Shown here in pieces: positions 1,821 to 49,457 of a stretch of 49,992 nt of DNA; position 1 is the first letter of the stretch; each line of letters opens with the position of its first letter. The position numbers and the translations under genes were made by a program. This DNA is from Syntrophomonadaceae bacterium. Lineage in GTDB: Bacteria > Bacillota > Dethiobacteria > DTU022. The stretch covers positions 1 to 49,992 of the forward strand of contig PUKV01000252.1 of assembly GCA_003550645.1 (NCBI GenBank). Direction: 5' to 3'. The notes beneath the pieces are model-generated. The model ran no database searches. It saw nothing but the letters and a program-made list of their open reading frames with translations, and was not told where the DNA came from.

Positions 1821-1909
1821 GGAATATTGGGGACGGTTCTAAATATTCCACCTTACCGCTCAGCAGAACCAATCGGGTCCGGAATATTTAGAACCGTCCC
1901 CAATATTCC
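1821..1909. repeat. REP-like inverted repeat element with GAACCGTCCCC core
   Basis: Two 29-bp arms, at 1821-1849 and 1881-1909, are perfect reverse complements separated by 31 bp. Each arm is itself an imperfect hairpin, with GGAATATT and AATATTCC ends around a core reading TAGAACCGTCCCC on one strand. The element starts immediately after the rho stop codon and ends 20 bp before the regulator's ATG, so it fills almost the whole intergenic space. It could serve as a bidirectional hairpin or terminator, or be a mobile REP/MITE-like sequence. A copy with different arms but the same core lies at 44985. Confidence 0.85.
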
Positions 1910-3154
1910 TTACATGGTGTGCATGTTGCTTAGGAATTCCTCGTTTGATTTAGTCTTTCTGAGCCGGTCCATCAGCTTCTCCAAGAATTCGATGCTGGTG
2001 CTGCTGCCCATGGCCCGGCGCAGGGCCCACATCAGTTCAATCTTGTGTTCATCAAGAAGCAGCTCTTCGCGGCGGGTCCCTGAGCGGGAAATATCGATAG
2101 CCGGGAAGATCCGGCGATCCGCGATGCGGCGATCCAGGTGCAGCTCCATGTTGCCCGTTCCCTTGAATTCTTCATATACGACATCGTCCATCCTGCTGCC
2201 GGTATCAACAATCGTCGTGGCCAGCACGGTAAGGCTGCCCCCCTGATCAATATTCCTGGCGGCCCCAAAGAAGCGTTTTGGTTTATAGAAAGCGCTGGGA
2301 TCTATCCCGCCGGACAGGGTCCTGCCACTCGGCGGTATAACCAGGTTGTAGGCCCGGGTGAGCCTCGTAATACTATCAATCAAGACGGCAACATCCCGGC
2401 CCTGTTCCACCAGGCGCTGGGATCTTTCAAGCACCAGCTCGGCCAGGCGGATGTGGTTCTCCGGCTTTTGGTCGAATGTTGAACTGACCACGTCGGCATC
2501 AACACTGCGTTCCATATCGGTAACTTCTTCCGGGCGCTCGTCGATCAGCAGTATAATCAGCTTGATTTCCGGCTGGTTGGATGAAATACTGTTGGCGAGC
2601 TGCTTCAAAAGCATAGTTTTCCCTGCTTTCGGCGGAGAGACGATCAAGCCGCGCTGTCCCCTGCCGATCGGAATCAGCAGGTCGATGATCCGGGTGGACA
2701 TGATATGAGACTGGGTTTCCATTTTAATCTGCTCATCGGGGTGGATGGGCACCAGTGAGGAAAAGGGCGGGCGACTGGACAACTTTTCCGGATCCTCTCC
2801 ATTGATCTCTTCCACCTGGAGAAGGGCATAGTAGCGTTCATTGTCTTTAGGCGGCCGGATCCGGCCGGAAATAATGTCCCCCGTCCTCATGTTGAAGCGG
2901 CGAATCTGGGATGCCGAAATATAAATATCATCTTCTGAAAAATGGTACTGCTTCCGCCGTAAAAAACCGAATCCATCCGGCATAATTTCCAGCATCCCTG
3001 AAGCGGTATGCTGTTCGCCGTTTTCAGAGAATAGCCTGGTAAGAGAGTCAATCAATTCCTGCTTGCGCATTGTTGACTGCCCTTTAATTTCATGTTCTTT
3101 TGCCAAACGATGCAGTTCATGTAATTTCATCGTTTGCAGGTTCTTTGTATCCAA
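1910..3154 (-). CDS. rho: Transcription termination factor Rho
   Basis: A hexameric RNA helicase that ends transcription at Rho-dependent sites. Domains in order are a Rho_N SAP-like segment (LHELHRLAKEHEIKG), an RNA-binding cold-shock fold (DGFGFLRRKQYHFSEDDIYIS, about residues 50-110), and a RecA-like ATPase with Walker A PPKAGKTMLLKQ and Walker B LIILLIDERPEEVTDM. The Q-loop/R-loop region (IPPSGRTLSGGIDPSA) is intact. The ORF track starts at 3208, but a TTG at 3154 has a good ribosome site (aaggtgg, 9-nt spacing) and gives 414 residues, close to the family's usual 420. The stop codon abuts the inverted repeat at 1821-1909. rpmE, a common neighbour, is absent. Confidence 0.95.
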   Translation of the reverse strand: MDTKNLQTMKLHELHRLAKEHEIKGQSTMRKQELIDSLTRLFSENGEQHTASGMLEIMPDGFGFLRRKQYHFSEDDIYISASQIRRFNMRTGDIISGRIRPPKDNERYYALLQVEEINGEDPEKLSSRPPFSSLVPIHPDEQIKMETQSHIMSTRIIDLLIPIGRGQRGLIVSPPKAGKTMLLKQLANSISSNQPEIKLIILLIDERPEEVTDMERSVDADVVSSTFDQKPENHIRLAELVLERSQRLVEQGRDVAVLIDSITRLTRAYNLVIPPSGRTLSGGIDPSAFYKPKRFFGAARNIDQGGSLTVLATTIVDTGSRMDDVVYEEFKGTGNMELHLDRRIADRRIFPAIDISRSGTRREELLLDEHKIELMWALRRAMGSSTSIEFLEKLMDRLRKTKSNEEFLSNMHTM

Positions 3155-44467: not shown

Positions 44468-44986
44468 ATGTGCGTATTAACTAAAATGCAGGCATGTCCG
44501 GGAGCGAGAAAATATAGACCGCTATATTGTATTCTGCTCCTGGGTATGCTTGTTTTTATCTATTCCGGCATCATGCATATACATTCTCCGCAGCAGCACC
44601 TGGTTGTGGAAGCGCCCGGGGAAGAGCAGTATCTTTATTCCATACCTGCTAATAATAATGATGTTTTTGAAATGACCTATCTACATTCGGTGAGCAACCG
44701 GCTGGTACAGGGCCGTTTTGAAATCACCGGAGAAGGAGATATCAGGCCGCTCACTACAACTTTTGACTCTTTTGGCCCGGGTCTCCCTGAACTGGATGGT
44801 TCACTTGACTATGAAGTCCAAAACGGAAAATTTGTGGTTTACCATGATGAAGAGCCCAGGGAAAAGATTAGCCTGTTTGTTTCCCCGCTAACAGAGGACC
44901 GGCTATACTGGTATGGTCAGGAATACGACCTCGCCTCTCATTTTGAAAAACCGGTCTTGCTCAAGATTTATACCTCCACTAAATGA
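44468..44986 (+). CDS. DUF1850 domain protein, TAXI-TRAP accessory
   Basis: A 172-residue protein with one N-terminal membrane segment (YCILLLGMLVFIYSGIMHI) and an extracytoplasmic DUF1850 domain containing MTYLHSVSNRLVQGRFEI and TTTFDSFGPGLPELDG. DUF1850 genes characteristically follow TAXI TRAP permeases, which supports the assignment. The function is unknown. The ribosome site before ATG 44468 is weak, and M9 is another possible start. Its TGA stop lies inside the first arm of a REP-like element, so the last few codons may have been altered by that insertion. Confidence 0.83.
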   Translation: MCVLTKMQACPGARKYRPLYCILLLGMLVFIYSGIMHIHSPQQHLVVEAPGEEQYLYSIPANNNDVFEMTYLHSVSNRLVQGRFEITGEGDIRPLTTTFDSFGPGLPELDGSLDYEVQNGKFVVYHDEEPREKISLFVSPLTEDRLYWYGQEYDLASHFEKPVLLKIYTSTK

Positions 44987-45046
44987 AACGCGGAACCGTC
45001 CCCGTGTTTCGCCTGGAACCGTCCTCATGTTTCGCCCGTGTTTCGT
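44985..45046. repeat. REP-like element, second family member with GAACCGTCCCC core
   Basis: Unit 1 (44985-45010) has GAAAC and GTTTC ends around GCGGAACCGTCCCCGT. A second, degenerate core GGAACCGTCCTCATGTTTC (45015-45033) and a further CGTGTTTCG follow. The GAACCGTCCCC core is identical to that of the 1821-1909 element, but the pairing arms differ. The DUF1850 stop codon overlaps the first arm. The region continues into TTTTT, so the element may also terminate transcription. Confidence 0.8.
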
Positions 45047-49190: not shown

Positions 49191-49213
49191 ATTAAACAAT
49201 CTTTTACTTTACA

Positions 49214-49457
49214 GGCGAAGAAAGACAGGAGTAGGCACAATTCTTTTTCAGAGAACCGGGGAGGCTGGAAACCGGTAAAGGGCTGTGCTGAACGTCGGTC
49301 CGGAGCCGTCCGGCTGAAACTGAAGTAGGCCGGACCGGGTTGATACCGTTACCACCATCACAAAGACTGGCTTTTGTAACCAGTACGGTTCTGGTTAGGT
49401 TAAAAAGGGTGGTACCGCGGAGGAAGCCCCTTCGCCCCTTTGGGCGAAGGGTTTTTT
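49214..49457 (+). ncRNA. T-box riboswitch, probable valine specifier (GTC)
   Basis: The leader contains the invariant T-box AGGGTGGTACCGCG (49406-49419) and a Stem I with GACAGGAGTA, AGAGA and GGCTGGAAACC elements. On the 3' side, GAAC is followed by GTC (49294-49296), the position where the specifier codon is expected, so valine is predicted. A terminator stem with a T-run follows the T-box. Uncharged tRNA binding would favour the antiterminator and switch on the downstream ilvE, which fits a branched-chain amino acid response. Confidence 0.92.
49428..49457 (+). terminator. Intrinsic terminator of the T-box leader
   Basis: A perfect 10-bp stem CCCTTCGCCC/GGGCGAAGGG with a CTTT loop is followed by TTTTTT. 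It directly follows the T-box sequence and is the regulated terminator of the riboswitch. Confidence 0.93.

Follow-up and report, generated by a model that had tools for sequence, protein, structure and literature searches.

The window, i.e. the whole 49,992-nt stretch of DNA analysed, carries a DUF1850 gene (PF08905; 44468..44986, plus strand) whose TGA stop codon (44984..44986, plus strand) is overlapped by the 5' arm of a single plus-strand hairpin (44985..45010). The 5' arm (GAAACGCGG, 44985-44993), starting with GAAAC (44985-44989), and the 3' arm (CCGTGTTTC, 45002-45010), ending with GTTTC (45006-45010), enclose the loop, and the exact core GAACCGTCCCC lies within the hairpin at 44993-45003 (plus strand). 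A truncated tandem remainder follows (45011..45046, plus strand), which contains a one-mismatch variant of the core (GAACCGTCCTC, 45016-45026) without a 5' arm of its own, and two extra GTTTC 3' arms (45029-45033 and 45040-45044). Inverted pairing of the REPIN type is absent here, the copy being one unit followed by a truncated direct repeat. In the nearest relative (L205) the DUF1850 gene stops at the same codon without the element, indicating that the element has left the end of the protein unchanged. An exact empty site was not found, since the DUF1850 relatives without the element share at most 64% protein identity and are too diverged. The window also contains a T-box leader (RF00230, 114.5 bits) at 49209-49442 on the plus strand.

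The same core occurs twice more beside rho, in a REPIN-like inverted pair spanning 1821-1909. The first half (1821..1849, minus strand) is a hairpin unit in the standard register of the family (see below) and reads GGAATATT-TA-GAACCGTCCCC-AATATTCC; the second half (1881..1909, plus strand) ends directly before the rho stop codon (1910-1912, minus strand). The cores are located at 1829-1839 (minus strand) and 1891-1901 (plus strand). The two 29-nt arms are perfect inverted copies of each other and, as in REPINs, the two inverted units form one long hairpin, the single-stranded fold of 1819-1911 reaching z = -9.9 relative to shuffled sequences. A transposase locus from the same genus (L122) has the hairpin TGGAATAATTAGAACCGTCCCCAATATTCCA, with arms close to those of the pair, and we propose that the 1821-1909 pair belongs to a GGAATAWT-armed family, distinct from that of the 44985 copy, with its putative transposase in the congener. 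In another congeneric locus (L220, genome G004) an inverted pair with the same core lies directly after the rho stop codon, its arms pairing via G-T changes; the gene next after rho differs there, which could reflect either a conserved copy or an independent insertion at the same gene end.

A sequence-only reading of this stretch had described one core within two different sets of arms, each element touching a stop codon, and this description holds. The core is exactly GAACCGTCCCC at all three sites, the arms are GAAAC/GTTTC at 44985 and GGAATATT/AATATTCC at 1821-1909, and the former element overlaps the DUF1850 TGA while the latter abuts the rho stop codon. Core matches with up to one mismatch number five in the window, against 0.65 expected, a count reached in none of 100 shuffles. 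The single-stranded fold of 44980-45015 pairs GAAACGCGG with CCGTGTTTC at -7.3 kcal/mol (z = -3.9) and was equalled by none of 200 shuffles. The pairing register of this copy is one base away from the family standard, and the 3' arm type TGTTTC after the core is confined to this locus within the genome and recurs in four further genera of the class. An off-by-one register and arms unique within the genome are what a chance palindrome around a core copy might produce; this is, however, most improbable given the fold score, the occurrence of GAAACA-type arms with the same core beside transposase genes in other genomes (e.g. L096, L293), and the tandem remainder of the 3' half, a feature that typifies the family. 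Judged from sequence, the most likely origin of the 44985 copy is a GAAAC-armed family, of which it would be a single, decayed unit; a one-base shift of register is to be expected of such a unit, and we infer the lineage of the copy.

In the genome of the window (2.16 Mb, 77.8% complete) exact GAACCGTCCCC occurs 29 times, against one occurrence of the reversed motif, and the 9-mer GAACCGTCC 52 times against nine. The core is present in 88 of the 98 genomes of the class, often in tens of copies and up to a maximum of 182, while the reversed motif mostly occurs zero to three times. The contexts of copies, taken from individual genomic stretches, reveal several self-complementary arm sets around the core in this genome (GGAATATT, GGAATAAT, AACACA/ACACAG and the GAAAC set of the window), together with a longer core-bearing element lacking the short stem. 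Many dispersed GAACCGTCCCC cores belong to a MITE-like element rather than to a short-stem hairpin. This MITE-like repeat (~150 bp, often ending GTAACTACTCAG...CTGAGTAGTTAC) has two inverted GAACCGTCCC cores and no short stem; it was seen in L174-L203 (genome G007), L009, L015, L024 and L254, and supplies most of the cores of G007.

Two intact RAYT-like Y1 transposase genes are encoded in this genome. The stop codon of the first is overlapped by a downstream TGACAAGTGAAACGTCCCTTTGTCA, inverted relatives of which are located upstream, and the second is flanked by TGTGACAAAATTGCCCCGTCCCCAATGTCACA-type hairpins. A cognate transposase for the GAACC loops was not found in this 78%-complete genome. 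Relatives of the first transposase (P0001) occur in 66 of the 98 genomes of the class. The transposases are about 255 aa long, match the PF01797 profile above cut-off and have a conserved C-terminus of the SIRQ..R..G type; the catalytic residues N59, H60, H62, Y119 and N123 (HUH, Y-x3-N) are invariant in ten members, and the only solved structural relative is E. coli TnpA_REP (4ER8, E 4e-7).

The flanks of 173 transposase loci were compared, 90 of them from the class set and 83 from named Bacillota and three viral contigs. An inverted hairpin whose 11-nt loop has GTCCC at its end lies beside the transposase gene in 120 loci (both sides in 57), often directly 3' of its stop codon, as exemplified by ACAGAAGAACCGTCCCCCTGTGTT (L084), GGAAGCAAAAGAACCGTCCCCTTGCTTCC (L105) and GGGACAAGGGACCTGTCCCCTTGTCCC (L066); within the stretches and thresholds used, the other 53 have no such hairpin. 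Flanking hairpins are in the inverted sense in 177 cases, versus 15 in the opposite one. The same arm is found up- and downstream of one gene in 48 of the 57 loci, versus 3.7 after shuffling (21 of 27 versus 1.3 for GAACC loops only), a match that would also follow from simple inheritance of transposon ends. An alternative arrangement is seen in Halobacillus locisalis (L283), where the transposase stop codon is followed by GGGACGGTTCTCGTGTTTGG...CCAAACACGAGAACCGTCCC, i.e. inverted cores that enclose the pairing arms instead of being enclosed by them. In one genome an interrupted IS200-type transposase followed by an apparent tnpB start, and a truncated second Y1 gene, were observed (L030/L034 on C146, L032 on C86).

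The three commonest placements among the strong hairpins of the class set (111 cases) correspond to one register, in which base i-7-n pairs with base i+5+n (i being the G of GTCCC), leaving an 11-nt loop. In the unselected class set, where the nearest GTCCC was taken irrespective of pairing, downstream pairs 3-6 are Watson-Crick in 72-85% of cases, versus 29-50% with the 3' arms swapped between loci; all four pair types occur at most outer positions, and the upstream set is concordant. A second data set, of Bacillota-wide loci, gives 63-82% versus 30-55% for pairs 3-7. In a 47-row alignment, thinned by hand from 72 rows by dropping near-duplicates and some hairpin-less rows, 79% of positions are paired versus 35-44% in slid registers, percentages that are optimistic because of the thinning and of which the class and Bacillota-wide sets are the unselected versions; its covariation score is 0.686, versus 0.205 when shuffled and at most 0.196 (~0.20) when slid. 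The arm covariation for which the sequence-only reading had proposed an alignment of flanks is thus present in both the class and the Bacillota-wide sets.

Across 164 aligned elements the information per position peaks in the loop, whose constant part GTCCC was also the search anchor, and at the tip of the stem (the apical pairs C-G and A-T, i.e. CA/TG); the outer stem is paired with little sequence information. A core that is the most conserved part of the element would also be expected if a double-stranded DNA-binding protein, such as the C-terminal HTH of the transposase, read it as a duplex, the arms being remnants of inverted ends, and HTH-like C-termini in subclass 2.1 (PMC6006769) and a weak, sub-cut-off match to HTH_19 in P0002 (none in P0001) point in the same direction. 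Recognition of a duplex, however, does not call for covariation, at one fixed register, between the halves of an individual unit, and we consider it improbable as compared with recognition of a folded single strand.

In 37 of 179 hairpins the 3' half (the core's end with its 3' arm) is repeated in tandem as truncated copies behind the hairpin, and lone extra 5' arms precede seven, several of which prove to be full copies. Besides 45011-45046 in the window, 3'-half repeats were seen at L101, L084, L050, L118 and other loci, often opening with CGTCCC or with the second C of GTCCC. They may be due to a directional process, such as nicking on the 3' side or repeated insertion at the end.

Within the loop GTCCC is constant and the five preceding bases vary (GAACC, ACCCC, GACCT, GAAAC, GGTAC). 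These five bases track the transposase tree (14 changes versus 34.6 shuffled), as do the arms (37 changes versus about 56, and 21 versus 29.5 within GAACC loops), permutation values that serve as guides rather than as probabilities since the sequences compared are related. Where two proteins share 60-80% identity, their loops agree in 75-96% of cases and their arms are identical in only 40-56%, so that the arms evolve faster than the loop, and they do so in matched pairs. Changed arms still pair, e.g. in L099/L101 and L281/L300; the former have proteins 75% identical, the same loop, and arms GAAGCA.. and GCAACA.. with full compensation.

Swapped arms around the same loop in transposases 75% identical, and several arm types around one core in one genome, are also what would be seen if one transposase served all arm types in trans, the arms being free except for the requirement to pair. 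Against this, the arms beside a given gene agree with one another and track the protein tree, and the apical pairs are conserved, which leaves the trans alternative rather unlikely, albeit one that merits consideration. The tree, arm-match and information patterns together suggest that the loop and the tip of the stem are read as sequence, and that the outer stem is a lineage tag read mainly by its shape. Since the arms would be lineage tags, the two arm types of the window most likely reflect two transposase lineages and not one arm-indifferent protein. The claim of the sequence-only reading that a protein recognises the core and that the arms need only pair therefore stands in part. Arms that differ and yet covary, in a fixed register and with many types per core, agree with it; the notion that they need only pair is too permissive, given that the arms are lineage-specific (the match in 48 of 57 loci, the tracking of the tree and the conserved apical pairs). 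Likewise, the constancy ascribed to the core applies to the invariant GTCCC and not to the five bases before it, which shift with the transposase tree.

Element sites are intergenic in 82 of 87 cases in four genomes, as against ~20-24% for random positions drawn from those stretches. The share of true hairpins at most 40 nt from a stop codon is 100% in this genome, 44% in G093 and 50% in G057, versus 12-18% of random positions, figures that refer to cases with a neighbouring stop, rely on a home-made gene caller and small numbers, and give paired units two chances. Among 80 downstream hairpins, 17 have a 5' arm that starts at, or within, the stop codon of the transposase gene itself, and elements are also present between divergent genes. 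The bias is absent in G007 alone (a stop codon at most 40 nt away in 8% versus 17% at random), because most of its cores belong to the different, MITE-like element. The insertion preference for gene ends suggested by the sequence-only reading is consequently real as regards placement, G007 excepted, and may lie in insertion or only in survival.

Intergenic sites, often near stop codons, and stems that fold are equally features of RNA signals at gene ends, such as terminators or mRNA-stabilising structures, to which the link with the transposase would be incidental. Yet no T run follows the stem in the 164 aligned elements, where the information 3' of the stem is near zero, a terminator-like match exists at 44985 only for the opposite strand, and the 44985 element corresponds to no Rfam family. 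Together with the strict inverted flanking of transposase genes and the elements between divergent genes, this makes RNA signalling as the main role very improbable.

Transposases with flanking terminal inverted repeats, many of which share the motif GGGGWSAS, have been described as 'TIRYT' by Di Nocera et al. 2013 (PMC3733652). Some of these TIRs form repeat families elsewhere in the genome; they are mostly unrelated to REPs and some are partly self-complementary, and the accessible part of that text names neither Firmicutes nor Clostridia. Quentin et al. (PMC6006769) place TIRYT in subclass 2.1, i.e. RAYT group 1 (the largest published RAYT group, with 292 sequences as cited there), whose proteins have HTH-like C-termini, and found no REP-like sequences nearby by automatic and manual searches. 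The loci analysed here resemble the TIRtron/TIRYT in having a Y1 gene flanked by inverted repeats and moderately abundant repeat families elsewhere in the genome; the class is one with a C-terminal HTH, for which the proteins here offer the SIRQ..R..G-type C-terminus and the sub-cut-off HTH_19 match of P0002. As for the motif, ACCT loops here read GGGGACAG, an exact fit to GGGGWSAS, and the main GAACC loops read GGGGACGG, one base off. Unlike the TIRs as described, each end here is a hairpin, with the motif in its loop and with covarying arms. These features and the motif suggest that the window-type hairpins are the terminal hairpins of RAYT group 1 (TnpA_Y1 subclass 2.1, TIRYT). Text searches, which cover neither figures nor supplements, retrieved no relevant paper with the core by sequence string or name, and no description of the hairpin form, fixed loop and compensated arms of group-1 ends.

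The elements share with the GTAG REPs and REPINs of RAYT groups 2 and 3 (PMC2817692, PMC3116915, PMC8266576) the short single-stranded hairpins, the inverted pairs, the position flanking a RAYT, the co-evolution with the transposase, the location at gene ends and the stop codons supplied by the repeat. They differ in that the conserved tag of the GTAG REPs is at the foot of the stem and the tag here is in the loop. A GTAG REP was rejected, as five GTAG and three GTGG within 12 nt of 164 stem feet represent chance level. For groups 2 and 3, the importance of positions in the loop and at mismatches, in addition to GTAG, has been shown (PMC8266576), which makes reading of the loop plausible. The CGTC-tagged REPs (PMC3733652) likewise contain CGTC, are palindromic and form dimers, but theirs is an unpaired end tag, with a loop of 4-5 nt and no known transposase, whereas the present elements are transposase-linked; this family was rejected given that CGTC sits within the 11-nt loop here and not outside the stem. 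Imperfect hairpins on one strand are also recognised by the HUH/Y1 transposases at the ends of IS200/IS605 elements, although the loci here reveal no mobile unit of the IS type with its subterminal hairpins and guide sequences.

Overall, we regard it as very probable that these are dispersed hairpins cognate to a group-1 RAYT, with a shared loop and tip, and with stems acting as lineage tags. The single strand would fold into a stem of ~6-12 bp with an 11-nt loop composed of N, GAACC or a variant, and GTCCC. The common recognition feature would consist of the loop together with the two apical pairs (C-G, A-T), and the outer stem, which would have to pair, would be a lineage tag that a transposase gene shares with its dispersed copies. 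This enzyme would presumably bind the folded single strand, e.g. on the lagging strand, and might nick and join it by analogy with E. coli TnpA_REP, and copies thus seeded would survive between genes and at stop codons. We infer protein binding, strand cleavage and mobilisation of the hairpins from sequence comparison.

In broader terms, it is reasonably probable that group-1 RAYTs across Bacillota have an 'inside-out' REP, with a loop motif half constant (GTCCC) and half set by the lineage, and a stem that serves as a lineage tag and drifts through compensated changes; the motif would then rank, in these genomes, among the short repeats that are most widespread. The data propose a hairpin substrate for RAYT group 1, previously without an assigned one, and its fixed geometry suits an oligonucleotide cleavage assay. 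The covariation is in effect a natural experiment that separates the reading of sequence by a Y1 enzyme (loop and apical pairs) from that of shape (outer stem). The core, recurring up to about 180 times, is usable as a mask or marker for Bacillota genomes. Relatives of the transposase were also detected on three IMG/VR viral contigs (L352, L353 and L354), two of which have the same hairpins, pointing to either phage carriage or misbinned host DNA.
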